DNA of 64,000 bases, from positions 1-64,000 of the forward strand of contig CAMDAH010000012.1 in NCBI GenBank assembly GCA_945888625.1, written 5' to 3'. The stretch comes from Chryseobacterium gleum (GTDB lineage Bacteria > Bacteroidota > Bacteroidia > Flavobacteriales_D > Crocinitomicaceae). The translations under genes and the position numbers were made by a program. Shown here in pieces: positions 36,418 to 61,466 of the stretch; the stretch's first letter is position 1; each line of letters begins with the position of its first letter. The notes beneath the pieces were generated by a model that did no database searches, was not told the DNA's origin, and worked only from the letters and a program-made list of their open reading frames with translations.

Positions 36418-36975
36418 TTATTTATTTAGAAATTCTCGACTCCGTTTAACTAATAAATTTAATAAAACACTTGCTTCTTTTGGATCAATTTTTTTACCAA
36501 ACCGAACCGATTTATTGAGGTATTCAAATTGAAACCGCTCCCCGCCATTAATCCATGGAGATGATTCCCAAACACTTTGAATGGAGTTAGGTTCAGGATA
36601 CACCAAACTAATTTTTTCAATGTTTTCATGAAAATATACCGAAGACTTACCGTAATTAGCGATTGACTTTTTAATGTGAATACCAACCTCATTAACTTTA
36701 ATTTTTTCCTTTCCATATTGTAACCAAAGAAAGGCCTTCGTTACGCGAAAAGCGTAATAGAACCAAAAAACTAATGCAACAACAATAATAATTTTTTCCT
36801 GTCGGGACAACTTAAGAACATTAAAAGCCCAAATTAATGTAAAACCGATGGTATACCACATAGCTAACCAAGCACCCATCATAAGATTGACAAACAACTT
36901 CTTTTCTGGCTCAATAACAATCGTTGTTTTATCGGAATGATCAACAAAAGTAATTCGTTGCCCTATTGATTTCAT
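36418..36975 (-). CDS. Two-helix membrane protein with PH-like domain
   Basis: About 185 residues from the ATG at 36975, which the -7 box 4 nt upstream supports; a start at 36993 would overlap that box. Two transmembrane helices ([28 protein letters not shown] and [23 protein letters not shown]) are followed by a cytoplasmic beta-rich domain ([12 protein letters not shown]-like text, [26 protein letters not shown]). This layout resembles bacterial PH-domain membrane proteins. Function unknown. It is 2 nt from kbl and probably leads the kbl operon. Confidence 0.7.
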
Positions 36976-36979
36976 AGTA

Positions 36980-36987
36980 CAAAAATA
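36980..36987 (-). promoter_or_regulatory. -7 box, 4 nt before the start codon
   Basis: The minus strand reads TATTTTTG, a perfect TAnnTTTG match, ending 4 nt before the ATG at 36975. Transcription would begin at or next to the A of ATG. The box lies only 4 nt beyond the T run of the gldN terminator. Confidence 0.55.
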
Positions 36988-36991
36988 AAAC

Positions 36992-37015
36992 AAAAAACCC
37001 CGGCAAGTGCCAGGG
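36992..37015 (-). terminator. Rho-independent terminator of the gld operon
   Basis: On the minus strand CCCTGGC-ACTT-GCCGGGG forms a 7-bp stem (six Watson-Crick pairs and one G-U) with a 4-nt loop, directly followed by six T. It lies 21 nt after the gldN stop. This is the clearest intrinsic terminator in the window and one of its few GC-rich elements. Confidence 0.88.
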
Positions 37016-37036
37016 CTTTGAAAAATTTAACACCAC

Positions 37037-38305
37037 TTAGTAATTCCAAACGTCGTGTTCCCAAGTGCGCAACGAATTTTTAAATTCTTCCGCTTTGTAT
37101 AGTGCATCCACACCAAAACGATAATCTTGAATTTCTTGATCGAATCTGTTTGAACTCTTGTAAATCTGTGCAGTAAAATAACGTTTCCAAAATAAATCAT
37201 CGAAAGACATTAAATTAGCGTCTGATTTATCGTTGTACACAAAATAATTTACGATAACATTTCTCAATTCAGGGAAATACAACCAAAACATTTCACGCTC
37301 TTCATACTCATCCTCGTATTCCTCAAAACCTTTGCCAAAAATATATGCTTTACCAGATTTACTGTATACAATTAAATCGCCACGTTCAGCGTCGGGATCA
37401 TTTGAATTGACATCTACCGTATAACGTGCAACAGGCGCAATGCAAATAACTCGTTTTTCAAACATGGATAATTCTTTATCGAAATACCAATCTTCCTTTA
37501 GGTTGTACGCAAAAATGCTATTTGAAGCAGCATACATAACCTTGTAATCTTTTTTTACTACCGAATTAACATTGGCTGCATCCCACCAACTTTGAAATTT
37601 ATCCCTATCAACAGATAAAAACGTTTCGTAATCAGGATCAGCTTTAATAGCCGAGTCTAAAAATACTTGGAGTGTTTGGTCCGTTTTCACAACAGTAATG
37701 GTGTCTTCAGTGTCACTTATTCGAGCGAGTTTTAAATCATCTCCCTTTCCATTGGCTGAAATTATGTCTGATATTGCTTTTTTGTATTGACCACTTAGAA
37801 AATAGTCGTTTCCGTTAAAATTAGGACTTTTGACCACTGGATATTTGAGACTGTAGCCGTCTTCCACGGTCGGGTGTAAATCGCTAGCAACCTGATAAAC
37901 TGTCAAATCGCCAAGAAGGATATGTCGCAAAATGATTGTCCAAAGTGACCAACTCGTTTGATTACGATTCCAAGATGTATTATCCACCTCTTTTAAACTA
38001 GAAGGACTGTATGATGTTGCTTCGCCCTCCGCACCTTCAAAAGAATCGTAGGGTAGAAATATCGAGTGATTCATTTTTTCTCTGGCATCGATTCGAGAAT
38101 ACACTCTTTTAGCAAAAGCATAATCAGCTGCACGAACAAACTCGTATGGCCTAGCCGCACCCACTGGCAGTTCTTCCTGAAGTACAACCCCGTCAATAAC
38201 ACCGTTGGAAGGTTGATTTAATGGCCCTCTCATCGGATCACCTTGTGCACTTACTAAAGACGACAAGCCAATACAAAAATAAATTAATCCAATAGTTGCT
38301 TTCAT
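37037..38305 (-). CDS. gldN: Gliding/T9SS protein GldN (PorN)
   Basis: GldN (PorN) forms, with GldK (PorK), the periplasmic ring of the type IX secretion system below the outer membrane. The 422-residue protein has a signal peptide (IGLSSLVSAQ), then VLQEELPVGAARPYEFVRAADYAFAKRVYSRIDAREKMN, WTIILRHILLGDLTVYQ, ICIAPVARY and MFWLYFPELRNVIVNYFVYN, all typical. From memory flavobacterial GldN is about 300-350 residues, so this one is longer; the extra length seems to lie in about residues 100-240. It is the last gene of the operon, 6 nt after gldM, followed by a strong terminator. Confidence 0.93.
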   Translation of the reverse strand: MKATIGLIYFCIGLSSLVSAQGDPMRGPLNQPSNGVIDGVVLQEELPVGAARPYEFVRAADYAFAKRVYSRIDAREKMNHSIFLPYDSFEGAEGEATSYSPSSLKEVDNTSWNRNQTSWSLWTIILRHILLGDLTVYQVASDLHPTVEDGYSLKYPVVKSPNFNGNDYFLSGQYKKAISDIISANGKGDDLKLARISDTEDTITVVKTDQTLQVFLDSAIKADPDYETFLSVDRDKFQSWWDAANVNSVVKKDYKVMYAASNSIFAYNLKEDWYFDKELSMFEKRVICIAPVARYTVDVNSNDPDAERGDLIVYSKSGKAYIFGKGFEEYEDEYEEREMFWLYFPELRNVIVNYFVYNDKSDANLMSFDDLFWKRYFTAQIYKSSNRFDQEIQDYRFGVDALYKAEEFKNSLRTWEHDVWNY

Positions 38306-38311
38306 AATTTC

Positions 38312-40063
38312 CTAGTTTGTAACTTTTAAAATTCCTTGAGCAGGCAAATCAGCTTTCTTTCCGTTTCGGGTGTAAAAAATCTCAATTCCCACTCGCTTAC
38401 CAGCTCTAAGCTTAGCTACAGCACTCCCTGGAACTACTCGTCCATTAAAAGGAACATCATCAATCGTTCCACCAATATATCCAAAAACTACACCTGTAAA
38501 AACGGATTCTGCTCCAAAGCTTACAGTTGCGGTATAACCAGTTTGCTTAGAGATCACAGTACCTGCTACTTGTGCAGTTGGAAATGGCTTTACTCTATAC
38601 TTAAAAGTACCGAAACCTCTCGATTTACCATCTTTATCTTTTCCTGTTAAAGTAATGGCCACTTGCTTGGATCCTGGAGCAACTCTAACATAATAACCTT
38701 TGTAGTTGCCATTTGCATCACTCCAACTAGCTTGAGTAGCTGATCCACCAGAAACACTAATAGAAGAGGATACTACACCTGCAGCAACAGGAACCACTTT
38801 ATTATCATGATCTTTATACATAACAGATAACTCGGGTAACGCAATGGAACCATTTGGCTGAACAATCTGCACTTTCCACGTCCATGGTCTTTCTTTTGGA
38901 ACACCAGCTTTGTTAAAAATCTTAACTGTTCCAGATAGATTCATTTCACCGTTGTTAGCTGCACGTGTTTTAACGGTTCCTATACCGTCAACAACTGTTA
39001 TCGTTCCAGGACCAGTTACCACAGGGTTATTGTCTGAATCGTATGCGGCCATAGTTACTTTCAGCTCGATATCTTCACCAGCTGTCGCTACGCCAGGCCC
39101 ACTAACCAATTCTTGAATTTTATTAAAAGAATATTCACCAGTCGTAACCTTACTTTTCAACAAGTTCACTGCTTTTGCTCTTGCTGCTAAAATATCATTC
39201 TGCAAGGAAGATAATGAAGCAAGTGCACCAACAAGCGGTGAATGGTCAAAAGTTTTTGCCATCCAATGGATACCTTTCAATTCATGGTGATCATTTAATT
39301 CCTGCTTTGTTAATTCTTCATAAATGGATGATAAAGCAGCAAGATCTTCCTTGTTAACTTTATTACCTGGTGCTTTAAACATGTTTTCGATTTGCTTCGT
39401 TAAATCGTTATTGTCTTTAAAGGTGTTGATGTCTTTCACTTTAACAACCCATTTGGTATTTTCACCTTCTTTGTATGATCCAGTGGTTTCTACAACGAAC
39501 TTGCGGTAAGCATTAAATTTTTTCCAAAGTTTTAAACCATCTTTCGTGGGGTCTAATCTTTTAATTTCAGAACCTATTATTTCATGCATCGGCTTATCAA
39601 ACTGGTCTTTCGCTTGAACTGCTTCTAAATTCATTCTAATGGGCAACAATGGCTTTTCTAAAGAATATTTAGTCCAAATAATCGATTCTTTATTCTTGTC
39701 CTTTACGTTTTTTATGTCTTCACCACTTTTCTCAAGGATTTTGAGCTTCACTTCGTCAATGAGCTTAATCATAGCGCCTGTTTCTTTATCCACTTTTTTA
39801 ATGAGGTCCAAGTATTGTTTGATTTTTTTCTTCTTAGCTCTACCAGCCTCGTCATCTAACTGAGTTGACAATTCTTGACTAAGATCTTTTTTAGCAGCCT
39901 CTCCTCTTTCAAACTGAACAATATTTCCTCTTTGAATATTCTCCTCAATAGCAACAAAAGCATCAAGAACAGACTTAGAAACATTCAATGCAAGTAATGC
40001 CGTAAGCACTAAATACATCATACCAATCATCTTTTGTCTTGGGGTTTCTTTACCTCCAGCCAT
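38312..40063 (-). CDS. gldM: T9SS motor protein GldM
   Basis: GldM (PorM) spans the periplasm and with GldL forms the proton-driven rotary motor of T9SS and gliding. The 583-residue protein begins MAGGKETPRQKMIGMMYLVLTALLALNVSK: one N-terminal helix with the conserved Arg9 just before it. The remainder is periplasmic, with a helical part (about 60-230) followed by beta-rich repeats (AGEDIELKVTMAAYDSDNNPVV, VAGTVISKQTGYTATVSFGA) as in the stacked D1-D4 domains. It lies 48 nt downstream of gldL and 6 nt upstream of gldN. Confidence 0.95.
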   Translation of the reverse strand: MAGGKETPRQKMIGMMYLVLTALLALNVSKSVLDAFVAIEENIQRGNIVQFERGEAAKKDLSQELSTQLDDEAGRAKKKKIKQYLDLIKKVDKETGAMIKLIDEVKLKILEKSGEDIKNVKDKNKESIIWTKYSLEKPLLPIRMNLEAVQAKDQFDKPMHEIIGSEIKRLDPTKDGLKLWKKFNAYRKFVVETTGSYKEGENTKWVVKVKDINTFKDNNDLTKQIENMFKAPGNKVNKEDLAALSSIYEELTKQELNDHHELKGIHWMAKTFDHSPLVGALASLSSLQNDILAARAKAVNLLKSKVTTGEYSFNKIQELVSGPGVATAGEDIELKVTMAAYDSDNNPVVTGPGTITVVDGIGTVKTRAANNGEMNLSGTVKIFNKAGVPKERPWTWKVQIVQPNGSIALPELSVMYKDHDNKVVPVAAGVVSSSISVSGGSATQASWSDANGNYKGYYVRVAPGSKQVAITLTGKDKDGKSRGFGTFKYRVKPFPTAQVAGTVISKQTGYTATVSFGAESVFTGVVFGYIGGTIDDVPFNGRVVPGSAVAKLRAGKRVGIEIFYTRNGKKADLPAQGILKVTN

Positions 40064-40111
40064 AATTTATGTGTTTAAAATTATTTATAATTAATTAGGT
40101 TGTTAAATGAT

Positions 40112-40960
40112 TTAGCTTTTCATTGCCTTAAGCATGTTTCCGTAAACATTATTCAAGTCGGTTAAGTTTTGTGCTAACATAGCCATGTTCTCACGGTACA
40201 ATTTAGTATCCTCGGCAGAAGCTGATAAATCACTCATCATTTCTAACACTTGTTTTTGGAAGCCTTGAGTTGCCTCTAAATGGGCTGAAGAACCTTGTAA
40301 TTGAAGCTCATAAACATTGTTCAAAGCAGTTAAATTTTTGGAAACGCCTTGCATCGCTATACCCATTTGTTCACCGTCTACTTGAGCTTCGGTAATGCCA
40401 ACGAGTGAAACGGAAGCTTTTTTGTAGTCGGAAACAAGTGTCGCCACACTTTGAGAAGCTGCTTCTAAACTTGCCACATATGAATCGGTAGCTGTTGCGG
40501 CAGAAGAAACGCTTTTAAGTTGTTCTGCGTTGTTACTTAAGTCCCTCATAGAAGAACCTAATCTATCTAAAAGAGCTTGATCTATTTTGGCATTTGCAAG
40601 TAGCTCGTCGAATTTTTCAGTAATTCCTGTTGAAGAACCTCCTCCTGCTCCACCAGCAAGATCCAATGGCTTTGGAAAAGCAGCCAACTCCTCAGCAGAT
40701 TGCGGTCTTTCATCTTCTGGTAAAAGGTAAGGGTAATAAACAGCCCAATTTGGTTCTGCATGTAAAGGCTCCATAGCACTCAAGGCAAAAATAAGCGCTT
40801 CAGTGGACAGACCGATGATTAACATCTCGTCACAAAAAGGCCAGTGCATAATTTTAAACAACGCTCCAAGAATAACTACGGCAGCACCAAAGCCATAAAC
40901 TTTACCCATTAACTTCTTATACCCTTTAGATGCGAAAACACTTTTTGACTTACCACTCAT
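40112..40960 (-). CDS. gldL: T9SS motor protein GldL
   Basis: GldL (PorL) is the inner-membrane stator-like partner of GldM. The 282-residue protein has two helices: VYGFGAAVVILGALFKIMHW (about 21-40) and MLIIGLSTEALIFALSAM (about 46-63), with an intramembrane glutamate at position 54, matching the essential proton-pathway glutamate known in GldL. After AEPNWAVYYPYLLPEDE, the cytoplasmic region contains a Gly/Ser linker and a long coiled coil (about 120-280). It is longer than the roughly 215-residue F. johnsoniae GldL (from memory), mainly in the coiled coil. Confidence 0.95.
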   Translation of the reverse strand: MSGKSKSVFASKGYKKLMGKVYGFGAAVVILGALFKIMHWPFCDEMLIIGLSTEALIFALSAMEPLHAEPNWAVYYPYLLPEDERPQSAEELAAFPKPLDLAGGAGGGSSTGITEKFDELLANAKIDQALLDRLGSSMRDLSNNAEQLKSVSSAATATDSYVASLEAASQSVATLVSDYKKASVSLVGITEAQVDGEQMGIAMQGVSKNLTALNNVYELQLQGSSAHLEATQGFQKQVLEMMSDLSASAEDTKLYRENMAMLAQNLTDLNNVYGNMLKAMKS

Positions 40961-41012
40961 GATTTTAGATTTATATGTTAAACTTTAATTAAATAATACG
41001 TTACAGAAATAA

Positions 41013-43031
41013 TTATTTTAGCTGGATGTCGCTCTGAATTTCTTCACCATTTTCAGCCTCGAGGTCTTTTCCTCCTCTACCTAAATGTGTCATTACATTA
41101 CGAAATCCGATATACGATTTAGCAGTGTCTTGGTATTCGTATGTGCGTGTTGAATTAAGAAGATAATACCCAATATCTTTCCAAGAACCACCACGAATAA
41201 CTTTACGTTTTTTAACAGGGTGGTCGCCGTCTTTCGCATCATACTGATTGTCGGAATTGAGATCATGCGTAAATTCGCTTGCGGAATTTTCATAAGCCGA
41301 TGAACACCATTCTGCCACATTTCCGGCCATACAATACAGTCCAAAAGCGTTGGGATTATAAGAATATACTTTAACCGTGTGGAACCCACCATCTTCAAAA
41401 TACCTACCTCTCATCGGCTTGAAATTTGCTAAGAAACAACCATTAGCATTTCTGATGTAAGGACCACCCCAAGGATATTGAGATAAATCTAAATCTCCAC
41501 GAGATCCTCTCTCCCACTCAGTTTCAGTAGGCAAACGAAAATCATTTACGAATAAATCCCCATTAGATAATAACCAACTGTGAAAAAGTTGTGTTCTCCA
41601 AACAGAAAAGGCCTTCGCTTGTGACCAAGTAACTCCAACAACAGGATAGTTGTCATAGGCAGTGTGCCAGAAATAATTTTGAGTCATCGGATCATGAAAA
41701 GAATACGTAAAATCCCTAACCCAACATAAAGTGTCAGGATAAACATGAATTCTTTCCTTGATAATAAATCTACTTCTGTCTGTATGGCCCCGAATTGCAT
41801 TATGTTGGCCCTTCGTATTTGTATAACCCAAATCCAAATCTTGCCCTGGATTGATTAAAATCCCCCCCTCCACTAATGCTACACCATTTTGATCAGTAGG
41901 AACCGAGGAATAAGTTGAAGGATCAATAGATGTTGGATCGTTGTAAACAGTTGAATCAAACATTACTTGACTTCCGTCAACATTTAACGTGGAACGATGT
42001 AATCCATTATTTTTATAATCTTTAGATAGTGGATCTCTTCTGTGGTTTCCCGTTAAATTTTCATTTAGATAATTGTAAGAATTTCGCGCATCAACATCTG
42101 CTGTTTGAATTTTCCCTCGCTTTGCAGCCTCCTTATAATCTATCCAATAATAGTCGTAAAAAAGTAACCTTGTATCGATTTGTTTATTCTTAAAGTACTG
42201 TTCCTCCTGACCTAAGTACATATCAGAAAGTAAAAAAGCAGTCTCAGGATCGGTGTAATCAATAGGAACCTCCCAATTCAACGTGAAAAACTTTCGGTTT
42301 TCGAGACGACCACCGTTGGCTTCGAGAAGTTTCTTATCAAAATCTTTAGGACCTTCTGACTTCATGTCAGCCGATTTACCTTCTTTGGAATAAGCATAAA
42401 AGATATTAGAAACCTCTAATGGATTCAGTGTTAAATCAATATCTTTTCTTGTTATTTTCTTAGGAGCTTTCTCTAAACCTGCTTTTTTCCAATCAAAGCC
42501 ATTCACTTTAATTCCGTCATAACCAGATAGTAATAAATAAGCTTTATCTAATTCTTCGGAACCTTCTCCTGTTAAAAACGGCTCAAAAGGAGTGTTAGCA
42601 CCTTGTACATCAGACCCTTGAGAAATAAGTGATCGATAAGGTTCTTTGAAAAAATCATCTGGGACATTAACCCACTCTTCTGCATCGTCAGCAGATTGTC
42701 TTCTAAACAATTTTTCTCTCGCCATTGAGTCACGCACCCAATCCACAAATTGGCGGTATTCGTTATTAGAAATCTCAGAAGCATCCATGTAAAATGCTTG
42801 AACAGAAACCGTTCTCACTCGAGCGGTATGCAAGCCCATGATGTCCTCATCATCTTCTCCAGACTGATATGCTCCGGCGGGCACATAAATCATTCCATAA
42901 GGAACTTTTCCAGGGCCAAGAATGTCTGGGTAAAAAGTACCTCTACCTTGAACACCAACTAAATTACCATCAATGTCATTACACGATGATAAAACAGCTA
43001 TAAATACGGCAATAGCAAAAAATCTTTTCAT
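41013..43031 (-). CDS. gldK: T9SS ring lipoprotein GldK, expanded form
   Basis: GldK (PorK) is an outer-membrane lipoprotein that forms the T9SS ring with GldN. Lipobox LSSC gives lipidated C17. The FGE-sulfatase-like fold is in two parts: residues about 40-100 (YGMIYVPAGAYQSGEDDE, FYMDASEISNNEYRQFVDWV) and about 425-655 (YPVVGVTWSQAKAFSVWRT, FRLPTETEWERGSRG, MAGNVAEWCSSAY, VIRGGSWKDIGYYL, IGFRNV). The 320-odd residues between them are much longer than in F. johnsoniae GldK (about 460 residues in total, from memory), making this protein 672 residues. First gene of gldK-L-M-N. Confidence 0.93.
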   Translation of the reverse strand: MKRFFAIAVFIAVLSSCNDIDGNLVGVQGRGTFYPDILGPGKVPYGMIYVPAGAYQSGEDDEDIMGLHTARVRTVSVQAFYMDASEISNNEYRQFVDWVRDSMAREKLFRRQSADDAEEWVNVPDDFFKEPYRSLISQGSDVQGANTPFEPFLTGEGSEELDKAYLLLSGYDGIKVNGFDWKKAGLEKAPKKITRKDIDLTLNPLEVSNIFYAYSKEGKSADMKSEGPKDFDKKLLEANGGRLENRKFFTLNWEVPIDYTDPETAFLLSDMYLGQEEQYFKNKQIDTRLLFYDYYWIDYKEAAKRGKIQTADVDARNSYNYLNENLTGNHRRDPLSKDYKNNGLHRSTLNVDGSQVMFDSTVYNDPTSIDPSTYSSVPTDQNGVALVEGGILINPGQDLDLGYTNTKGQHNAIRGHTDRSRFIIKERIHVYPDTLCWVRDFTYSFHDPMTQNYFWHTAYDNYPVVGVTWSQAKAFSVWRTQLFHSWLLSNGDLFVNDFRLPTETEWERGSRGDLDLSQYPWGGPYIRNANGCFLANFKPMRGRYFEDGGFHTVKVYSYNPNAFGLYCMAGNVAEWCSSAYENSASEFTHDLNSDNQYDAKDGDHPVKKRKVIRGGSWKDIGYYLLNSTRTYEYQDTAKSYIGFRNVMTHLGRGGKDLEAENGEEIQSDIQLK

Positions 43032-43141
43032 TTTATACTTATTTAAGTTCGAACATTAAACAAACTAACTTTGCTACAGGTTATCATGGTTTGTCATAAC
43101 GTATGAACAATAAAAATGGTTACATACTAAATCTTTAAAAT

Positions 43142-44095: not shown

Positions 44096-44282
44096 TTTAA
44101 GTTAACATTAGTCAAGCGCAGAAGGACATGCAGTTTATTCCCAAAACGTGCGCTAAAATAATTAAAAAAAATTAAAACAAAAAAAAAGTTTGTTTTATTA
44201 TTTCAAATAAAGTTAAAACTAACCGATAAAAACTAGTTGATTTGCTTTTTTTAATTTAGAATAAAAATGATGTAATTTAATT
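44096..44282. other. AT-rich intergenic region with weak hairpin
   Basis: This 187-nt gap lies between the PorP/SprF gene and the arginase-fold gene. It is very AT-rich. TAAAACAAA (44173-44181) and TTTGTTTTA (44189-44197) form a 9-bp inverted repeat around a 7-nt loop, followed on the minus strand by a T run; it could end transcription of the upstream arginase-fold gene. No coding region or clear -7 box for the PorP gene was seen. Confidence 0.4.
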
Positions 44283-52782: not shown

Positions 52783-52799
52783 AATAAAATTTATTTGCA

Positions 52800-52807: not shown

Positions 52808-52893
52808 ATAAATGTTCGCACCGACATCTCGAAAAAATAAGGGGAATAAGAGAAAATATATTATTGCTAAGCAAAACAAAGCTGATAAAATTG

Positions 52894-52901
52894 TACCTTT
52901 G
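52894..52901 (+). promoter_or_regulatory. -7 promoter box deciding the recF start
   Basis: TACCTTTG is a perfect -7 match ending 6 nt before the ATG at 52908 and downstream of the alternative ATG at 52812. It supports the shorter RecF. Confidence 0.6.
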
Positions 52902-52907
52902 GAATTC

Positions 52908-54023
52908 ATGTATTTAACCCATTTACACTTACTTAACTTTAAAAATTATTCCGATACTGAAATACAATTTTCGTCTCGACTAAACGGTATTGTAGGTGAT
53001 AATGGCAGCGGAAAAACCAACATTTTAGATGCTATACATTACCTCAGCATGTGTAAATCTTACCTCAATGTAATCGACCGTCAGAACATAAAATTTGGGG
53101 AATTATTTTTTTCAATTCAAGGCAATTGGAAAGAACAAGAAACCGAATCCGTTGTAAATTGCGCTGTAAAATTGGGTTCAAAAAAGGTGGTTAAAAGGAA
53201 TAAAAAGGAATACGAACGTCTAGCGGATCATATCGGTCTTTATCCTGTCGTATTTATTTCACCTTACGATGGTGATTTGGTTGCTGAAGGAAGCGAATTA
53301 AGAAGACGTTGGATGGATGGAATTCTGGTTCAAGTCGACCGTATTTACCTGGACCAACTTCAACAATACAACCGTGTGTTAGAACAACGAAACGCGCTAC
53401 TTAAAAACATGTTTGAACACCGGTTATTTGATGCCGAAAGCGTGGAGGTTTGGGATCAACAGTTGGTAACATGTGGCAAACTAATTTATGAAAAAAGACG
53501 TTCTTTTTTAAACGAATTCATTCCGATTTTTAAAAAATATTATTGCATTATCGGCACGGAAGCAGAGCAGGTAGGATTAAGTTATCGATCGCAACTAAAT
53601 GAAGGAGATTTTGCTATGCTTTTGAAAGATTCGCTTCGTAAAGACACCTTTACACATTTCACTAATGTTGGGCTCCACAAGGATGATTTATTATTTACGC
53701 TAAATGGAAATCCCGTAAAAAAATTCGGATCGCAAGGACAGCAAAAATCATTTATAATTGCCTTGCGATTGGCGCAGTACGAATGGCTAAAAGTTTGCTT
53801 AAATAATACCCCAGTACTTTTGTTGGATGATATTTTCGATAAACTCGATGGACAACGCGTAGAAAAACTGCTTAAAATTGTCACCGAAGATTTTTTTGGG
53901 CAAGTGATTGTGACCGACACTGATCGATCCAGAATGGAACAATTATTTTCTTCATTAAATGTTTCTAGTAACCTATTCGAGGTAACTTCACAGCAACTAG
54001 TATCAATAGGAAATAACAGGTAA
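52908..54023 (+). CDS. recF: DNA replication and repair protein RecF
   Basis: RecF is an ABC-type ATPase that loads RecA on gapped DNA with RecO and RecR. From the ATG at 52908 (MYLTHLHLLNFKNYSDTEIQF) it has 371 residues, the normal length; the open frame extends to 52812 but those 32 residues are basic, unlike the family, and upstream of the -7 box. Motifs: Walker A GDNGSGKTN, signature FGSQGQQKSFIIALRLAQ, Walker B PVLLLDDIFDKLD. A DUF721 gene follows after 4 nt. The genes dnaA and dnaN are not nearby. Confidence 0.95.
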   Translation: MYLTHLHLLNFKNYSDTEIQFSSRLNGIVGDNGSGKTNILDAIHYLSMCKSYLNVIDRQNIKFGELFFSIQGNWKEQETESVVNCAVKLGSKKVVKRNKKEYERLADHIGLYPVVFISPYDGDLVAEGSELRRRWMDGILVQVDRIYLDQLQQYNRVLEQRNALLKNMFEHRLFDAESVEVWDQQLVTCGKLIYEKRRSFLNEFIPIFKKYYCIIGTEAEQVGLSYRSQLNEGDFAMLLKDSLRKDTFTHFTNVGLHKDDLLFTLNGNPVKKFGSQGQQKSFIIALRLAQYEWLKVCLNNTPVLLLDDIFDKLDGQRVEKLLKIVTEDFFGQVIVTDTDRSRMEQLFSSLNVSSNLFEVTSQQLVSIGNNR

Positions 54024-54027
54024 AAAC

Positions 54028-54333: not shown

Positions 54334-54371
54334 TAAATGGGCAATTTTTATGCGCCTAAAAAGAAATTAAC

Positions 54372-54379
54372 TACTTTTG
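54372..54379 (+). promoter_or_regulatory. -7 box before the esterase gene
   Basis: TACTTTTG, a perfect -7 match, ends 1 nt before a first ATG (54381) and exactly 4 nt before a second (54384). The 4-nt spacing seen at other genes here favours the second ATG as a leaderless start. Confidence 0.55.
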
Positions 54380-54383
54380 CATG

Positions 54384-55073
54384 ATGAAAAAATATTTTTT
54401 TTTAATTTTCTTTTTAGTTTCTTTACATTTTGTTGGTTTAGGTCAAGTTAAAGCCATTTACAACCAAGCGGATTATCCATTTTGGTTATACCTTCCCTCA
54501 GATAGCATTCTAAAAAGTAATCCACCAGTACTCATCTTTCTACATGGACGAAGTTTGTCGGGAACCAATTTAGCCCTCGTAAAGAAATATGGTATTATTC
54601 ATGAAATAGAAAATGGCAGAAAAATTCCTGCTATTGTTATTGCACCGCAAGTATTAGCAGGAAAAGCTTGGGAGCCTAAGAAAATACTTTCAGTTCTCCG
54701 ATTTGTGCAAAATAAATTTAATACAGATACTAATCGCGTTTATGTTGCTGGGATGAGTTTGGGAGGCTATGGAACTCTAAATTTTGTTGGAGAATATCCC
54801 CATTTAGTGGCTGCAGGTGTGGCACTTTGCGGAGGTGGAAATGTAAATGATGGGTTCAATCTTTCTCAAGTTCCATTATGGATTCAGCATGGAACACGCG
54901 ATGAAAAAGTACCGATTAGTGAATCCGAAAAAATAGTAACGGCAATAAAAAACGTTAACGGCGGAGAAAACTTAAAGTATTCCCGATTAGAAGGCAAAGA
55001 CCACGGCGATTTGGAACGCATATTTAGGACAGATGAGATGTACGACTGGCTGTTCCAATTCACCAAAGACTAA
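54384..55073 (+). CDS. Exported alpha/beta-hydrolase (esterase/peptidase-like)
   Basis: A protein of 229 residues from the second ATG. A signal peptide is present (MKKYFFLIFFLVSLHFVGLGQ). The alpha/beta-hydrolase fold shows the oxyanion segment LIFLHGRSLSG, nucleophile Ser in VAGMSLGGYGTLN, an Asp in HGTRDEKVPISESEKI, and His in EGKDHGDLERIF, so the triad is complete. This resembles the prolyl-oligopeptidase/dienelactone-hydrolase group of periplasmic esterases. It is followed 17-26 nt later by a second lipase-like gene. Confidence 0.87.
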   Translation: MKKYFFLIFFLVSLHFVGLGQVKAIYNQADYPFWLYLPSDSILKSNPPVLIFLHGRSLSGTNLALVKKYGIIHEIENGRKIPAIVIAPQVLAGKAWEPKKILSVLRFVQNKFNTDTNRVYVAGMSLGGYGTLNFVGEYPHLVAAGVALCGGGNVNDGFNLSQVPLWIQHGTRDEKVPISESEKIVTAIKNVNGGENLKYSRLEGKDHGDLERIFRTDEMYDWLFQFTKD

Positions 55074-55099
55074 CGATAACCAAGCTTATTTTGAAGCAA

Positions 55100-56098
55100 A
55101 TGGGTACAAAGCGTAGTTTTTCAATTTGGTATTTCTGTCAATTTACAGTTGCCATTGTTATTTGTAATTCCACTTTAATAAACGCACAAACTAATTACCA
55201 TTTACTTGAAAATTGGGCCGTGTTACCCAATAAAGTTTCTCCATATTTACTTGAAACTATTAAAGACAGTTCGTTGTTAAAAAGCCTCGATGTATTTTAC
55301 ATTTACCCAACTTTTTTAATTGATTCAACTGACAAGCGATGGAACACGACAATCGAAGATGCTATCAACAAAAATGAGGTACTTGAAAATGCCGTTCGCT
55401 TTCAAGCGAGCGCATGGGCAGAGTCGGGCAGGATGTTTGTTCCGTATTACCAACAAGCCCATCTTCGCTCCTACCGCAACCTAGATAACGGTGGGCGAAA
55501 CGCATTACTTTTTGCCTATTCGGATATTAAAGCTGCCTTTGAATACTACCTCGAAAATTTCAATCATGGGCGCGGTATAATTTTAGCTGGACACAGTCAA
55601 GGATCCACCCATATTAATTTATTACTCAAAGATTTTTTTGATGGAAAGGCCTTGCAAAAGCAACTCGTTGTGGCATACCTCCCAGGAATTGGTGTTGAGA
55701 AGGATGAATATAAAACAATTTCCTTCTCCATTAACCCGTTGGAAGTTGGAGGCTTTGTAAGCTGGAACACCTTTAAAAATCCAATAAACCTAGACACTTA
55801 CAATAAATGGTACAAGGGAAAAGCAGTTATAAACCCAATTACTTGGGATTTGTCTCCCCTTACTAAACGAAAGTATCAACGCGGTTTTTATTACAAAAAC
55901 AGTAAAAAATACAAGCGTGTTTTTCAAACAAACTTAATTGATGGCGCTCTAGTATTAACGCATTTGCGATTCCCTTTTAATCTTGTATCCAAAAAAATGG
56001 CAAGCTTTCATATTGGCGATGTTAATTTATTTTGGGACGACATCAGACAAAACTCAAAACAACGAGGTAAAACTTGGCTAGTTAAAAATGGGTTGTAG
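55100..56098 (+). CDS. DUF3089 lipase-like exported protein
   Basis: About 332 residues from the ATG at 55100; a TTG at 55091 would add three. The N-terminus is hydrophobic and ends LINAQ, a signal peptide. The DUF3089 features are LDVFYIYPTFLIDSTDKRWN, ARFQASAWAESGRMFVPYYQQAHLRSY-like text, the nucleophile elbow LAGHSQGSTHINLLL, and the C-terminal FHIGDVNLFWDDIRQNSKQR with a candidate His-Asp pair. Members are alpha/beta-hydrolases of unknown substrate. It is convergent with the DUF5916 gene, 8 nt apart. Confidence 0.87.
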   Translation: MGTKRSFSIWYFCQFTVAIVICNSTLINAQTNYHLLENWAVLPNKVSPYLLETIKDSSLLKSLDVFYIYPTFLIDSTDKRWNTTIEDAINKNEVLENAVRFQASAWAESGRMFVPYYQQAHLRSYRNLDNGGRNALLFAYSDIKAAFEYYLENFNHGRGIILAGHSQGSTHINLLLKDFFDGKALQKQLVVAYLPGIGVEKDEYKTISFSINPLEVGGFVSWNTFKNPINLDTYNKWYKGKAVINPITWDLSPLTKRKYQRGFYYKNSKKYKRVFQTNLIDGALVLTHLRFPFNLVSKKMASFHIGDVNLFWDDIRQNSKQRGKTWLVKNGL

Positions 56099-56106
56099 TA
56101 TAAAAA

Positions 56107-58527
56107 CTATTTCTTCCTTTTTAGTGATTGAGTATCTAACCAATAAATAAGCTTAAAAGAGAAGCTGTTGGTTGGACCTTGCTGAATTGTTTTCGAAAGG
56201 TTGTAAACATAAGACTCTGTTACAAATTTATCCGATTGAAATATGGAGTTTTTCCAAACGATATTTATTTCGCTACCAGGAAGAAATACCCAACGGTAAA
56301 CTAAATCAATAGTAAAAGCATTAAAATTTACGTTGTAAGCCGATTCGCCGTCAAAATCAAGGCCGTCAAAATCAATTGGATTTAATTGTCCATCCAGTTG
56401 AAGCTCATAAAATTTGCTGTAAACCAATGTAGATCGATAATGTCTCAATCGAAAAGAGATGTTCATGCGATTAGTAATTGAATAATCTATGGCAATTGTA
56501 TTGGTTATGTTGTTTCGATTTCGGGAGCCAAATAAGATCCCATTAAAAGAAGTGTCGGCAGGAGAACCAAAAGGGACCGCGAAACCTAGAAAATTAGTTT
56601 GAAAACCTTGCTCCCAATTATATTTCAAGAAAATATGATCCGATAATCTTAATCTCACGCCGACGTTGTAATCATACTCCCTCCAGTTATTACCATTAAT
56701 AATGTAATAACTACCGCCAGCATCAATCGCTATTTTCTTCTGATAATTGCTGGAAATCCATGATGATAAACCGGAAAAAGCAGGTAGCACATAATAATAC
56801 CCTGGCGTTCTTGCCTCAAAATAATCATACCTTTTAATGGGAGAAACGTACGATTCAACGCCACATGCCAAGAAATCTTTTGTAACCAAAAAGGACTTTA
56901 AATTGATTCCGAAACTGGTAAAAACGTTAGGGTTGTACAAGCGATTATAATCAATATCAATCGTTGAGGAATACCTCATTAAATTATTAGCGGGCTTGAA
57001 ATTTCGATAGGAAAAAGAAAATGCAGCATTCCTTCGGTTATTCATTTGATTGAAACCGAGATCATTTGGGTCATACGTATCTGATTCCTCAAAATACGAT
57101 GCCGAGTATACAAAAGCCCCTCTTTGTTTTCCGGCAAACAAACTCCAATTAAAACCCGTCGAGGTGCTATCTTGAAATAATTTATTAGAAAGCGCAGAGG
57201 ACGCACCCAAAAAATAATTATTATTCTTTGTATTAATGACCGATTTAAGACTGCTCACATTGGCATCATAAAAGGAACCTGCCCGTGTTACATTGGTATT
57301 TGTAAAATTCACATAACTATTATTTTTAAGGTTTTGGTCAAAAACCAATACGTTGTAATTAGTCAATGGAGAGACTAAAACCGCTCTCTCCTCCAGCGTT
57401 GTTTGCTCAACCGCCGTAGCAAACAACGGTGCCGTAACTGCATTAAAAACCCCTATTCCTAAGCCTAGTTTTGTTCTGCCACTTAATTTCGTAGCGTTAT
57501 ATAATTGCGTGGCCGTTGGCACAGACGACAAGCGCTCATTACTTTGCAGCAAATTATTCAATACGCTAGCCGGAGCTTGAATACCGATTCTACGACTGTA
57601 AAACAAACCAGATCTATTGAAGAGCTCATTTCCTTCGGTAAAAAACTGCCTGTTTTCATTAAACTGAATTTCAAAAGGAGAGAGATTGAGAACCTGATTG
57701 TCAAAAACTACCTGTCCAAAATCGGGGATTAAGGTAACATCAATTGTAAAAGCATCATTTAACCCATACTTAATATCCATACCGCCATTAAAAGACTTAG
57801 CAACATTGCCTTTATCGGTCACCAAATAAGAGGAAACGTAGGGCATTAAAGCAAGCCGAAAAGGTGGATCAATACCCTTTACTCCTTCGACAACTCCGCT
57901 TTCAAGTAAATAATTTTCTAAATCTGGGTTTACAGGCGACCAACTGGCGATTTCCCTGAATCGGCTAATTTGTCTTGAAAAATTAACTCCCCAAGATTGC
58001 ACATCCTTTTCTGGAAAACGAATGGCAGAAAAAGGGATACTTATTTCTATAATCCAAGCTTCTTTTGCGAACTTAACCTTTGAATTCCATACTAAATTTA
58101 GCTCATCAATAAAGTCACCCTCGGCTATTTTAGCGTCGAGCTGAACGCCCTTGCTCGTAACTCCGAAATAGAAACCATTTTGATTATCGTTGTACGTGTC
58201 CAAAAAAATAGCAAAAATATCTGCATTCGGGCTATTTTCATCCCTGACACTAAATACTTTCGAGATTGAATCAGGGCTGTCGTAACAAATTGCCGCAAAA
58301 TAAATTGCCTCAGCTGAATAAGCCATTGCAACTTTAGTATTTTTTCTTGATTTTTCGCTTGGATTAGGCCGCAATTGCGTAAAGCTTTCTACAAACTGAG
58401 CTTTCTGCCAAAAAGCCTCGTTTAAATCTCCATCAATTAGCACTTTTTCATCTGTATGTAAGGCCTGAATTGTTTGAGAAAACAAGATGCAAGGGCTTAA
58501 AAAGAAAAACGCAACGACCCATTTCAT
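56107..58527 (-). CDS. DUF5916 outer-membrane protein with CBM9-like domain
   Basis: An 806-residue protein with a signal peptide (PCILFSQ). Residues about 20-220 form a carbohydrate-binding family 9-like domain (KVLIDGDLNEAFWQKAQFVESFTQLRPNPSEKSRKNT and the FLDTYNDNQNGFYFGVTSKGVQLDA region). The rest, about 230-806, is the DUF5916 region, with GQVVFDNQVLNLSPFEIQFNENRQFFTEGNELF and a long series of amphipathic strands ending SFSFKLIYWL, a probable barrel. Function unknown; the CBM9-like part suggests glycan or metal-ligand binding at the surface. The -7 box ends 4 nt before its ATG. Confidence 0.9.
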   Translation of the reverse strand: MKWVVAFFFLSPCILFSQTIQALHTDEKVLIDGDLNEAFWQKAQFVESFTQLRPNPSEKSRKNTKVAMAYSAEAIYFAAICYDSPDSISKVFSVRDENSPNADIFAIFLDTYNDNQNGFYFGVTSKGVQLDAKIAEGDFIDELNLVWNSKVKFAKEAWIIEISIPFSAIRFPEKDVQSWGVNFSRQISRFREIASWSPVNPDLENYLLESGVVEGVKGIDPPFRLALMPYVSSYLVTDKGNVAKSFNGGMDIKYGLNDAFTIDVTLIPDFGQVVFDNQVLNLSPFEIQFNENRQFFTEGNELFNRSGLFYSRRIGIQAPASVLNNLLQSNERLSSVPTATQLYNATKLSGRTKLGLGIGVFNAVTAPLFATAVEQTTLEERAVLVSPLTNYNVLVFDQNLKNNSYVNFTNTNVTRAGSFYDANVSSLKSVINTKNNNYFLGASSALSNKLFQDSTSTGFNWSLFAGKQRGAFVYSASYFEESDTYDPNDLGFNQMNNRRNAAFSFSYRNFKPANNLMRYSSTIDIDYNRLYNPNVFTSFGINLKSFLVTKDFLACGVESYVSPIKRYDYFEARTPGYYYVLPAFSGLSSWISSNYQKKIAIDAGGSYYIINGNNWREYDYNVGVRLRLSDHIFLKYNWEQGFQTNFLGFAVPFGSPADTSFNGILFGSRNRNNITNTIAIDYSITNRMNISFRLRHYRSTLVYSKFYELQLDGQLNPIDFDGLDFDGESAYNVNFNAFTIDLVYRWVFLPGSEINIVWKNSIFQSDKFVTESYVYNLSKTIQQGPTNSFSFKLIYWLDTQSLKRKK

Positions 58528-58531
58528 GGCA

Positions 58532-58539
58532 CAAAAATA
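58532..58539 (-). promoter_or_regulatory. -7 box, 4 nt before the DUF5916 start
   Basis: The minus strand reads TATTTTTG, a perfect match, ending exactly 4 nt before the ATG at 58527. Confidence 0.55.
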
Positions 58540-58601
58540 CTTTCTTATTTAAGAACTTTTCAAAAAATAGATTTAATACTAAAATTACCGCCTAAAAAAA
58601 G

Positions 58602-58695
58602 GGGTAGCCAATGGCAAAATGTTTTACGGGTAGTAACCAATCTTAACAAGCAAGTTAAACTGCACAAATGTGTTTTAATAATTCTAAACTACCCG
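58602..58695 (+). repeat. GGGTAG/CTACCC repeats around the OmpA gene start
   Basis: CGGGTAGT (58627-58634) is the exact reverse complement of ACTACCCG (58688-58695), which ends 1 nt before the ATG at 58697. A second GGGTAG copy lies at 58602-58607, and each GGGTAG is followed within a few bases by CCAAT. In the mRNA either upstream copy could pair with the sequence touching the start codon. Repeated binding sites for a regulator are the alternative. Confidence 0.4.
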
Positions 58696-58696
58696 C

Positions 58697-59443
58697 ATGA
58701 GAACTTTCATCTTGTTGACTTTTTATTTAATCAGTATTCGTGCATTAGCACAAGACAGCACAGAAGTTTATTTTAGTTTTAACAGCTCAAGCATAGACAA
58801 AAAGACAGCACTAGTTTTATCCGATCTAAAACAGCGTGCTGTTACAGTCACTGGAGTGTTTGGGTACACGGATACGCAAGGAACTAATGAGTACAATAAT
58901 TCATTGGCTAACAAACGAGTAAATGCCGTCTGTGCCTTCTTAAAGTTAAAAAATCCAATTAGCAAGGATAAAGCCGCAGTTGGAGAACTTTTTGACTTTT
59001 CCACTGATGATGATAAAAACAGAAAAGTAATTATTGTCACAGAAAATAGACCATCGGAAGTTAAAAAATTAGACGAGCAAATTAGAAATGCAAAAAAAGG
59101 CGATAAGATTGTATTAAGCGCATTGAATTTTGAGCCGGGACTGTCTATATTATTAAAGGAATCAGAACCAACATTAAAAACGTTGCTTCTTCAAATGCAA
59201 AACAATAAACAATTAGTAATTAAAATTCAGGGGCATATTTGTTGCCAAAAGGAGGATGAAAAGGATTTATCAAGTGAAAGAGCGAGACAAGTTTTTAATT
59301 ATTTAGTTGCGAATGGAATTACAAAAAGCAGGATGACGTTTGAAGGTTTTGGCGGAAAAGAACCCCTTTATAGTATTCCCGAGAAAAACACAGTAGAGGA
59401 AGTTGCCAATCGAAGAGTGGAGATAAAAATTATTAGCAATTAA
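58697..59443 (+). CDS. Exported protein with two tandem OmpA-like domains
   Basis: A 248-residue protein with a signal peptide (IRALAQ, residues 1-19). Two OmpA-C-like peptidoglycan-binding domains follow in tandem. The first (about 22-115) has VYFSFNSSSIDKKT, GYTDTQGTNEYNNSLANKRVNAV and NRKVIIVTE. The second (about 135-246) is more divergent, with GHICCQKEDEKDLSSERARQVFNYL and NRRVEIKIIS. No transmembrane barrel or lipobox is present, so it should be a soluble periplasmic peptidoglycan-binding protein. The CC pair in domain two (C182-C183) is unusual for this fold. Confidence 0.85.
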   Translation: MRTFILLTFYLISIRALAQDSTEVYFSFNSSSIDKKTALVLSDLKQRAVTVTGVFGYTDTQGTNEYNNSLANKRVNAVCAFLKLKNPISKDKAAVGELFDFSTDDDKNRKVIIVTENRPSEVKKLDEQIRNAKKGDKIVLSALNFEPGLSILLKESEPTLKTLLLQMQNNKQLVIKIQGHICCQKEDEKDLSSERARQVFNYLVANGITKSRMTFEGFGGKEPLYSIPEKNTVEEVANRRVEIKIISN

Positions 59444-59507
59444 AGCCTAATATAACAATAGTCAATATTTTGAAAATAAAATTTCATTCATTCCCAAAAA
59501 ATCACCT

Positions 59508-59515
59508 TAAATTTG
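59508..59515 (+). promoter_or_regulatory. -7 box, 4 nt before a GTG start
   Basis: TAAATTTG, a perfect -7 match, ends exactly 4 nt before the GTG at 59520. This supports the GTG as start and predicts a leaderless message. Confidence 0.55.
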
Positions 59516-59519
59516 CGTC

Positions 59520-59783
59520 GTGGAAACATTTGATTCACTTCGTGCGCAACTCGAATTGTTGGAATGGCCAAATGTTTATTTGTTCAAATTTATTATGCCC
59601 AACGATAAAATTAAAATAGCGCAAATCACTGCCTTATTTGATTCAAATGCACAACTAAGCCTTCATCCTTCTGGTAAAGGAAACTACACGAGCATCAGTG
59701 TTAAAACAGTTATGTTGAGTGTGGATGAAATAATTACTATTTATAAACTTGCCAGTGCCATTGAAGGCGTAATAACACTGTAA
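59520..59783 (+). CDS. DUF493 (YbeD-like) protein
   Basis: An 87-residue cytoplasmic protein of the DUF493/YbeD family with an ACT-like fold: METFDSLRAQLELLEWPNVYLFKFIMPND at the start, then LHPSGKGNYTSISVKTVMLSVDEIITIYK. E. coli YbeD lies by lipB and its role is unclear. The start is GTG, chosen because of family length and the -7 box 4 nt upstream. The next gene begins immediately after its stop codon, with no spacer. Confidence 0.85.
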   Translation: METFDSLRAQLELLEWPNVYLFKFIMPNDKIKIAQITALFDSNAQLSLHPSGKGNYTSISVKTVMLSVDEIITIYKLASAIEGVITL

Positions 59784-60164
59784 ATGAACACTTATATTTT
59801 TCTTAAAGATGTCCTTTTTTATTCTTTAGTTCTTCTTTGCCTTATTATTTCGTATCACCTAATAATTAAGCGCCTAAGTAAAGGCAGGCATATTCCCAGT
59901 GACTTTTGCTCACTTTATCCCCTTGACATAAATCCATCAAAAGGCGATATTTCGTTCTATTTCACAACTGAACTAGTTAAAACTGTACGAATAACCGTTG
60001 AAAATGACGAAAACATGAAGGTGGAATTAGCGAACAAAGAATTCGATAAAGGCGGGCACATTATTCGTTTCGATACAACAAGCTTAGCCGATGGCCTATA
60101 CTTTTACTGTTTAACGACAGATGTACAAGAAACAAAAAAGAAATTTAGGATAGCAAACAATTAA
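59784..60164 (+). CDS. Membrane-anchored T9SS-CTD-like protein
   Basis: A 126-residue protein with one hydrophobic helix (about 9-28, LFYSLVLLCLIISYHLII) followed by a basic patch (K29, R30, K33, R35). Residues about 45-124 read like a type A T9SS C-terminal sorting domain: YPLDINPSKGDISFYF at the start, TVRITVENDE in the middle, FDTTSLADGLYFYCL (the GxYxxx element) and KKKFRI at the end. Real cargo has a cleavable signal and a large passenger; here there is neither. By the positive-inside rule the domain could even face the cytoplasm. It starts directly after the DUF493 stop. Its 3' end overlaps the convergent gene by 4 bp. Confidence 0.72.
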   Translation: MNTYIFLKDVLFYSLVLLCLIISYHLIIKRLSKGRHIPSDFCSLYPLDINPSKGDISFYFTTELVKTVRITVENDENMKVELANKEFDKGGHIIRFDTTSLADGLYFYCLTTDVQETKKKFRIANN

Positions 60165-60874
60165 CCTTCTTTCTCTTTTTTAGGCTTCTTAACCTTAATT
60201 TTTGTTCTCCCTTTGTGAATGTGGTACTTCTTTTTACTAAAGTCGCTCTGTTGAGATGCTAAAGATTCAAATCGAAAAACCAATCCAGCACTATGTTGCA
60301 TATAATTAGAATAGCCCATAAAGGGGGAAGTTAAACCAAATTTTCCACCAGTTTGAATTTGCAAACCAACCGACTTAGAAAACCAAAAATTACACCCTAA
60401 CATTAGATTAAGAGTCGGAGTTAATGGGGCAACCAAAGAATCATCTCGATTTCGAATACTTATTCCTAGCCCTGTTGAAACATAAGGGTCTATCGTTCCG
60501 GACTTCAACATTTTGTAAAACGAATACTTAAGGTTAACATCGCTTGCTAAAAAAACACCTGTTTTCCCTAATTGCTTATTAAGTAATTTGTTCGCATTGT
60601 ATTTATTAAAAGCCATTGCAAGTTCACAACTCCAACCATTGTAAATATACCTGTCAACAAAAACTCTTGACGGATAAAAATTATAATGCCAGTCGGCAGG
60701 TGAATAAAATGCAGCAGCATTTCCATCATCATCTAGAGCGTTCCACCCAATCCCAAACATCCATTTGTAGCTGTTCTCCTCTGTTAACTTTTTGATCGGT
60801 TGTGCAAAAAGGACCGTCGATGTTAAGGCAAAAACAAGCATTAAACACCATTTTGATTGAATCTTTATTTTCAT
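60161..60874 (-). CDS. Outer-membrane beta-barrel protein with basic tail
   Basis: A 237-residue protein. The signal peptide ends STVLFAQ. The mature part shows strands typical of OmpA-type N-terminal barrels in this phylum (WMFGIGWNALDDDG, WSCELAMAFNKYN, FLASDVNLKYSFYKML, IDPYVSTGLGISIRNRDD, SVGLQIQTGGKFGL, QHSAGLVFRFE), making an 8-strand barrel likely. The last 35 residues are strongly basic (KKKYHIHKGRTKIKVKKPKKEKEG) and would face the periplasm, where an OmpA-C domain would normally sit. The -7 box lies 4 nt before the ATG. Confidence 0.8.
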   Translation of the reverse strand: MKIKIQSKWCLMLVFALTSTVLFAQPIKKLTEENSYKWMFGIGWNALDDDGNAAAFYSPADWHYNFYPSRVFVDRYIYNGWSCELAMAFNKYNANKLLNKQLGKTGVFLASDVNLKYSFYKMLKSGTIDPYVSTGLGISIRNRDDSLVAPLTPTLNLMLGCNFWFSKSVGLQIQTGGKFGLTSPFMGYSNYMQHSAGLVFRFESLASQQSDFSKKKYHIHKGRTKIKVKKPKKEKEG

Positions 60875-60878
60875 AGGA

Positions 60879-60886
60879 CAAACTTA
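60879..60886 (-). promoter_or_regulatory. -7 box, 4 nt before the barrel gene start
   Basis: The minus strand reads TAAGTTTG, a perfect match, ending exactly 4 nt before the ATG at 60874. Confidence 0.55.
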
Positions 60887-61016
60887 ATTAAAATATTTGC
60901 GACGAATAAAATTTTCAAGTAAGAAATCAAACAAAATTGATTCCTAAAACAATAAATAACATGGAGAGAATAATTTATTAACTAAATGGTTACGAAAAAA
61001 AGCAGATATTAATCAG

Positions 61017-61024
61017 TATTTTTG
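61017..61024 (+). promoter_or_regulatory. -7 box, 4 nt before the IPExxxVDY gene start
   Basis: TATTTTTG, a perfect match, ends exactly 4 nt before the ATG at 61029. It probably drives this gene together with pyk. Confidence 0.55.
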
Positions 61025-61028
61025 CATT

Positions 61029-61466
61029 ATGCCCAAAAAACTAAAAAAGTATATTTTAGAAAAGGACTCATTCGACTCCTTTGACATTTTAGGAATTGTT
61101 ACGGCACAAAATGATTTTAGACTGGCTTTGCAATTGAACGAAAAGTACCGCATTTTTTTTGAAAAGAATTTGGAACCCCTCGAAATTCCAGAAAAAAAAT
61201 CAGGACAAATAGTACCCTTTAATTATTTTTCATTTTCGGACCCTACAGACTTTGTATCCTACTTTTTAATTCGGAATAAACAAGATGGGCACCTCTTGCT
61301 TGCCGAAAAACCCTCTATTGATTTCTTTTTGGTGTTACAAAACAATTACAAATTAGAGACACAAGAAATACTAACTGATTTGCGATCAATGGAACGCATA
61401 ATCGCTGCCTTCCCATTTTCAAGTGATGAATTTGCATTGGCAGAATACCTAATCTTTGAAAACTAA
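61029..61466 (+). CDS. IPExxxVDY-family protein
   Basis: A 145-residue cytoplasmic protein. The family is named after a central motif that here reads IPEKKSGQIVPFNYF, a diverged form. The N-terminus (KLKKYILEKDSFDSFDILGIVTAQNDFRLALQLNEKYRIFF) and the C-terminus (EILTDLRSMERIIAAFPFS) fit the Bacteroidota family that is regularly found directly upstream of pyruvate kinase. Function unknown. pyk starts 3 nt downstream, so a regulatory or accessory role for glycolysis is plausible by position. Confidence 0.85.
   Translation: MPKKLKKYILEKDSFDSFDILGIVTAQNDFRLALQLNEKYRIFFEKNLEPLEIPEKKSGQIVPFNYFSFSDPTDFVSYFLIRNKQDGHLLLAEKPSIDFFLVLQNNYKLETQEILTDLRSMERIIAAFPFSSDEFALAEYLIFEN

Follow-up and report, generated by a model that had tools for sequence, protein, structure and literature searches.

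Introduction

In Flavobacterium psychrophilum, the −7 box of Bacteroidota promoters occupies positions −12 to −5 relative to the transcription start, ending 4 nt before it, the median leader is 24 nt long, and 5.5% of 890 mRNAs are leaderless (PMC9723704). Here, we describe a 64,000 nt stretch of DNA (the window), positions 1 to 64,000 of contig CAMDAH010000012.1 of assembly GCA_945888625.1, deposited as Chryseobacterium gleum and placed in the family Crocinitomicaceae, in which this box, TAnnTTTG, ends 4 nt before the start codons of six genes whose mRNAs are predicted to be leaderless.

In Bacteroides thetaiotaomicron about 3.7% of the 5′ untranslated regions are shorter than 10 nt (PMC7366714), and in F. 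johnsoniae the box and the transcription start are separated by 4 or 5 nt in many promoter candidates (PMC6847099). A survey of 953 bacterial genomes, in which a Pribnow-like signal was sought, reported leaderless genes in 1 of 37 Bacteroidetes/Chlorobi, and located the promoter element about 12 nt upstream of the start codon in such genes of Actinobacteria and Deinococcus-Thermus (PMC3160421). Bacteroidetes are elsewhere named among the groups reported to harbour a high leaderless fraction (PMC5397173), some Flavobacteriia are referred to as having leaderless mRNA (PMC10783764), and a paper on gene starts assigned the Fibrobacteres, Chlorobi and Bacteroidetes (FCB) group to AT-rich non-canonical ribosome sites (PMC9581028). 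Among the papers listed by full-text literature searches, judged by titles and abstract openings and with most subscription journals outside the range, there was no report on leaderless genes in Crocinitomicaceae and none on box spacing at a fixed distance.

The arrangement in the window resembles that of Actinobacteria and Deinococcus-Thermus in that an element is fixed just upstream of the start codon, putatively without a ribosome-binding site, but differs in that this element is TAnnTTTG, the box of Bacteroidota, and its end is 4 nt from the start. With the leaderless minority of F. psychrophilum and B. thetaiotaomicron it shares the phylum and the −7 box, whereas the shares of close boxes predicted here in three genomes (27%, 54% and 15%) stand against measured values of 3.7–5.5%, two sets of figures that are not like-for-like. 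A Fisher test against the published 5.5% pairs two different kinds of quantity and is given no weight as proof. The same leaderless inference was drawn in general terms from base composition (PMC5397173) and for Flavobacteriia without the CCUCC core of the anti-Shine-Dalgarno (anti-SD) sequence (PMC10783764); in the passages available no link is made to a −7 box of constant spacing, to individual genes or to this family.

Box-to-start distances across the genome

An earlier note, made from the sequence of the window, had listed six boxes ending exactly 4 nt before the start codon and proposed leaderless transcripts; letters and spacing proved correct for 6 of 6. We read the boxes as −7 elements of promoters of the sigma-ABfr type, with transcription starting at the start codon or a few bases from it and a leaderless message as the product, and give this reading a probability of about 0.88; the 5′ end and the mode of ribosome entry are what we infer. 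With the −7 box of the housekeeping promoter placed 4 nt before the start codon, transcription would begin on the first base of that codon or no more than a few bases away, and the mRNA would begin with AUG or GUG and be translated as a leaderless message. The exact 5′ ends of the six mRNAs are predicted from the 4–5 nt between box and transcription start in Flavobacterium, and this spacing makes leaderless or near-leaderless mRNA the best reading. At the level of sequence the proposal is supported by the peak of distances in the genome, the spacing in orthologues, the promoter context shared with distant boxes and the restriction of start codons to ATG and GTG among genes called blind to the box.

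The window is contig 12 of a genome of 2.417 Mb in 42 contigs (G000). Box-to-start distances were determined in 864 kb, namely 40 stretches of 20 kb and the window, with genes called by a hexamer score blind to the box (728 genes in the first run and 729 in a rerun, with the same picture). The distribution was bimodal: counts peaked sharply at 4 nt, fell to a valley at 8–12 nt and rose again to a second hump that began at 13 nt. Among the 729 genes, distances of 0, 1, 2, 3, 4, 5, 6 and 7 nt were found in 0, 3, 0, 7, 22, 7, 7 and 5 genes, respectively. A box was present at 3–7 nt in 48 genes, at 8–12 nt in 7 and at 13–30 nt in 89; the means for seven permuted control motifs were 2.4, 1.3 and 11.7. 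After subtraction of the controls, 27% of the exact-box promoters within 80 nt, or some 6% of genes, belonged to the close class. The flat distribution which the earlier note had named as contradicting its proposal was thus not what the 864 kb contained, and its statement that the spacing is more regular than chance agrees with the genome peak, the control motifs and the orthologues. The composition-based start caller placed recF at 52812 instead of 52908, and gave 58485, 60841 and 54381 for 58527, 60874 and 54384. Since it misplaces some starts, the close class is if anything undercounted.

The pattern TANNTTTG followed by 4 nt and ATG occurred 99 times in the whole genome, compared to 43 occurrences of the reversed pattern and 41 at a frame-matched spacing of 10 nt. 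A particular accumulation of such genes at 54–61 kb, also noted earlier, fared less well. The densest 7 kb held 4 of the 99 ATG matches, which was equalled in 23% of 5000 random placements; the densest 9 kb held 6 of the 99 (0.3% of random placements), 2 of these 6 were intragenic, and the window sizes were chosen post hoc. The special cluster was therefore set aside as weak.

Conservation of the close spacing in orthologues

The gene of the DUF5916 protein (PF19313; 56107..58527, minus strand) has its box TATTTTTG at 58532..58539 on the minus strand, followed by TGCC and the ATG at 58527. A scan with this protein gave 79 named loci, chiefly from metagenome-assembled genomes of Crocinitomicaceae and other Flavobacteriales, the group from which, judged by the nearest matches (74–80% identical), the window most likely derives; 63 of the 79 were scored and 16, mostly the most distant, were left out. 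A box 3–8 nt before an in-frame start was present in 45 of the 63 homologues, a count made without a control motif.

The flanking genes were followed in the same loci. DUF493 (PF04359; 59520..59783, plus strand) starts with the GTG at 59520, preceded by the box TAAATTTG (59508..59515, plus strand) and CGTC; on named contigs 30/30 orthologues had the box at 3–4 nt, with GTG or ATG as start codon. The gene of the IPExxxVDY family (NF033205; 61029..61466, plus strand), located upstream of pyruvate kinase, is preceded by TATTTTTG (61017..61024, plus strand) and CATT before the ATG at 61029, and the box was at 4–8 nt in 27/27 orthologues. The esterase/peptidase S9-like gene (54384..55073, plus strand) has the box TACTTTTG at 54372..54379 (plus strand), then CATG and the ATG at 54384; an earlier in-frame ATG lies at 54381, 1 nt past the box. 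In 8 of 11 orthologues the box was at 4–5 nt, and the orthologues of L042 and L043 begin at the codon aligned with 54384. The box of recF, TACCTTTG (52894..52901, plus strand), ends 6 nt before the ATG at 52908, the alignment to the RecF model TIGR00611 begins at residue 3 from this start, and 10 of the 12 orthologues scored had a box at 4–7 nt.

The gene for a protein of 237 aa with no family assigned (60161..60874, minus strand) has the box TAAGTTTG at 60879..60886 (minus strand), then TCCT and the ATG at 60874. Of its 28 orthologues scored (loci L041-L106), 8, all from the closest relatives, had the box at 4–5 nt, 15 at 16–27 nt and 1 at 2 nt, and 4 had none. The sixth gene (36418..36975, minus strand) encodes a protein of 185 aa without a Pfam or NCBIfam match, and is preceded by TATTTTTG (36980..36987, minus strand) and TACT before the ATG at 36975. 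A homologue was present in 59 of 60 genomes of the family, that of the window included. Twenty of the 59 were read, the window's own and 19 others, and the box was at 4–5 nt in 13 of these 19.

The close spacing was accordingly conserved for all six genes and recF, for 60874 in the closest relatives only, and the orthologues retained the close box while their flanks diverged. With the reversed motif and the same procedure, one match within 12 nt was found across the footprints of the flanking genes (in the 54384 set, at 7 nt), and none in the order-wide DUF493 and the 36975 footprints. No close box preceded ompA, a negative control (0/6).

Spacing class was also common to the members of gene families, with a pair coherence of 0.883 against a mean of 0.498 and a maximum of 0.556 in shuffles; 48 of 59 families were of pure class (shuffle mean 18.2, maximum 28). 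On the sequences compared, the arrangement belongs stably to certain genes in this order, and many of these have housekeeping functions.

A DUF493 gene was present in 84 of the 120 order genomes, and 70 of these were read. In the genus of the window the box was at 4 nt in 12/12 genomes, its own included (11/11 others). Among the 19 genomes from other genera of the family, 10 had it at 17–20 nt and three at 13, 11 and 8 nt, respectively; the remaining 6 were without a box. In family f2 it was at 4 nt in 15 of 22, 4 had it at 10, 17 or 19 nt or in unrecognisable form, and 3 had a one-mismatch box at 4 nt, as judged by eye. In family f53 6 of 7 were at 5–8 nt and one at 9 nt. With the spacing fixed in the genus and different in other genera of the family, the arrangement is heritable but changeable.

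Promoter context and start codons

Upstream context was compared in a set pooled from the genome of the window, G041, the loci L041-L099 and G397, comprising 188 close-box genes (3–7 nt) and 251 distant-box genes (13–30 nt). Aligned on the box, the two classes were alike: A at −6 in 58% and 46%, T at −4 in 52% and 54%, and a depletion of A at −1 (6% and 12%), for close and distant boxes, respectively. G was rare at the two free positions of the box, at 2% and 4% in the close set and 8% and 1% in the distant set; avoidance of G at these positions is described for F. johnsoniae (PMC6847099). In the window it was absent from them in 5 of the 6 boxes, and the box of 60874 has one G. Upstream of the box, base frequencies gave no clear −33 TTTG for the close or the distant class (188 and 251 genes), and in F. 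johnsoniae the element is likewise not evident in the portion available.

Aligned on the start codon, the distant-box genes had 53–63% A at −12 to −9, an A-rich stretch similar to the signal known from leaders in the phylum and to the Kozak-like A-rich leaders of F. johnsoniae (PMC6847099). In the close-box genes this stretch was not seen, and the box stands in its place; the absence is partly by construction, since the box itself fills these positions.

The 188 close-box genes started with ATG in 161 cases and GTG in 27, never with TTG. Counted as gene families, the close class (223 blind-called genes in seven groups) comprised ATG 110, GTG 8 and TTG 0, and the distant class (301 genes) ATG 192, GTG 6 and TTG 9; GTG and TTG differed between the classes (Fisher p 0.007). 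Transcription beginning on the codon would favour such purine-first starts. For 57% of the close-box genes, the upstream neighbour was transcribed divergently; for genes without a box the figure was 22%.

Competing explanations

The boxes might be true promoters while initiation also, or mainly, occurs further upstream, so that the main transcripts have leaders. Secondary transcription start sites are common in bacteria, and promoters without an exact box are invisible to the method used here. On the other hand, a terminator-like hairpin with a T-run, judged by eye, lies at 36992..37019 (minus strand) between the gldN stop and the box of 36975 and leaves little room for a leader. It is found directly before the box in three genus relatives (L280, L293 and L296) as well, and the orthologues conserve the close spacing. 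This explanation is regarded as unlikely.

A translation signal, ribosome-binding or Kozak-like, rather than a promoter was also considered, as the close box occupies the usual place of ribosome-binding sites and the phylum uses unusual non-SD signals. A close box was present in 0/27 of the operon-internal pyruvate kinase genes, which served as a negative control and had a single box at 48 nt. An upstream gap below 30 nt was found in 14% of close-box genes against 45% of genes without a box. The upstream context of close boxes equals that of boxes 13–30 nt away, and the signal reported for the phylum is A-rich, as at the distant-box genes. The idea was rejected as very improbable.

A still smaller chance is given to true starts lying downstream, which would make the close ATG or GTG a chance codon and restore the leaders. 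The starts are predicted from sequence, and DUF493 has in-frame alternatives at +36 and +39; its 30/30 orthologues nevertheless align from the first codon after the box, with exchange of ATG and GTG. A coincidence picked out by the reader, for which the three intragenic ATG matches in the window and the post hoc cluster might speak, is contradicted by the peak in the sampled genome, the controls and the orthologues and was rejected as next to impossible.

Several observations weigh against leaderless transcription from close boxes. The start codons are predictions, the footprint start was chosen as the one giving the best-fitting box, and the box-to-transcription-start spacing comes from another family; in F. 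johnsoniae, moreover, a spacing of 4–5 nt had itself served to pick out the 241 of 434 candidates regarded as probable promoters (PMC6847099). Boxes at 6–8 nt would leave leaders of 1–4 nt. An exact box was missing in 18 of 63 DUF5916 homologues, in 6 of the 19 other 36975 orthologues (in two of these 6, a box with a single mismatch was read by eye at 4 nt) and in 11 of 40 distant DUF493 genes, and in the other genera of the family the DUF493 box was at 3–7 nt in 0/19. One DUF5916 footprint, in L053 and fitted by hand, starts with TTG with the box at 5 nt. Finally, of 8 exact matches to TANNTTTG, 4 nt and ATG in the window, 5 are at gene starts and 3 are intragenic, at 8114 (minus strand), 52301 and 53815 (both plus strand). 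As TAnnTTTG is frequent in the window (106 matches against 89.9 ± 9.2 expected, with 4 of 100 shuffles reaching 106), its presence alone says little, and the spacing is the signal.

Distribution in the order and beyond

The highest close-range count was at 4 nt in all six other samples, with 4 genes in G041, 65 in the loci L041-L099, 15 in G397, 6 in G312, 9 in G374 and 6 in the Flavobacteriaceae genome G428. Besides the 27% of the window's genome, the close share of exact-box promoters was 22% in G041 (119 genes only), 24% in G397, 27% in G312, 54% in G374 and 15% in G428; the 40% obtained for L041-L099 is inflated, since these loci were chosen around conserved close-box genes. Compared to the Flavobacteriaceae genome (10/81), the genome of the window (48/214) was not significantly different (Fisher p 0.07) and G374 (14/29) was (p 0.0002).

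Pattern counts covered 91 of the 120 genomes of the order, with 4-nt matches set against the reversed control. The 4-nt signal is uneven over the order, strong in the genus (1592 to 507 in 13 genomes) and in family f2 (2572 to 758 in 31) and near nil in f60 (421 to 371 in 6). The rest of the family had 2359 to 1229 (19 genomes), f52 1075 to 733 (14 of 30) and f53 587 to 337 (8). By this cruder count G428 showed no 4-nt excess (120 to 112). Outside the order, a stronger 4-nt preference than in the genome of the window was observed in family f24, from another class of the phylum, in which nine genomes (G027, G059, G086, G101, G105, G113, G136, G144 and G232) had 360 matches at 4 nt, 117 of the reversed pattern and 79 at 10-nt spacing.

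A search for the 16S tail matched 20 of 120 genomes and 0/31 of f2, and a further one located 16S in 2 of 12 genomes. The tail of G334, from the genus of the window, retains CCTCC and thereby differs from the Flavobacteriia lacking CCUCC. In G379 and G397, of the same family and other genera, the tail is CATCTCC and AACATCTCC replaces AACACCTCC, so that some genera of the family have a changed anti-SD core. In G405, of family f52, the tail is CACCTCT. A link between the leaderless share and loss of the anti-SD was not established from these 20 of 120 genomes with a 16S match, none of them in f2.

Leaderless mRNA as a kind is already known; new are its abundance and gene-by-gene conservation here. 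This uncultured flavobacterium and many of its relatives very probably have a sizeable class of genes with the promoter abutting the start codon and predicted leaderless mRNA, an arrangement that measurements have shown to be uncommon in the phylum's best-studied members (a few percent in Flavobacterium and Bacteroides). We tentatively suggest, with the odds somewhat against it, that in parts of the order leaderless initiation is a second, selected mode which serves a quarter to half of the boxed promoters, is kept gene by gene over family-level divergence, is restricted to purine-first starts because transcription would begin on the first base of the gene, and can be switched in individual genes through the spacer. 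The class bears on how Bacteroidota choose start codons without SD pairing, and one genome with two predicted modes of initiation, with orthologues switching between them, offers a natural comparison. For annotation, TAnnTTTG 3–7 nt before ATG or GTG would mark the start. If leaderless initiation is indeed such a second mode, the bacteria to which AT-rich leaders are ascribed in place of SD sequences would include lineages often dispensing with leaders.

Other boxes in the window and kinds of close-box genes

Three near cases had been noted earlier and were found as described: recF at 6 nt, the gene at 9045 (metal module) at 7 nt, with the box TAACTTTG at 9030..9037 (plus strand) before its ATG, and radA (TIGR00416) at 10 nt, with the box TAACTTTG at 1215..1222 (plus strand) before the ATG at 1233. 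For 9045 and radA no orthologue was found among the DUF5916-centred loci compared. The radA box falls in the 8–12 nt valley and is at most a short-leader case. Such a distance is rare in the sampled genome; the box may go with a leader of very few nucleotides, or there may be another promoter elsewhere.

Thirty of the 48 close-box genes of the sampled genome were scanned against families. Above the family cut-off were ispD, ispE, guaA, trmD, mnmA, aroB, dnaX, purK, purT, asnS, ssb, mutS2, lnt, ruvX, a MazG pyrophosphohydrolase and a decaprenyl-phosphate phosphoribosyltransferase-like protein. Matches below the cut-off only included purN, ftsX, mreC, uridine kinase, a PyrR-like protein and polyprenyl synthase, among others, and 4 of the 30 were without a match at the thresholds used. 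Sensing of nucleoside triphosphate levels by the first base of the transcript is conceivable at the close-box genes of nucleotide metabolism. The genes of this kind in the close class were guaA, purK, purT and mazG, and below the cut-off purN, a udk-like and a PyrR-like gene.

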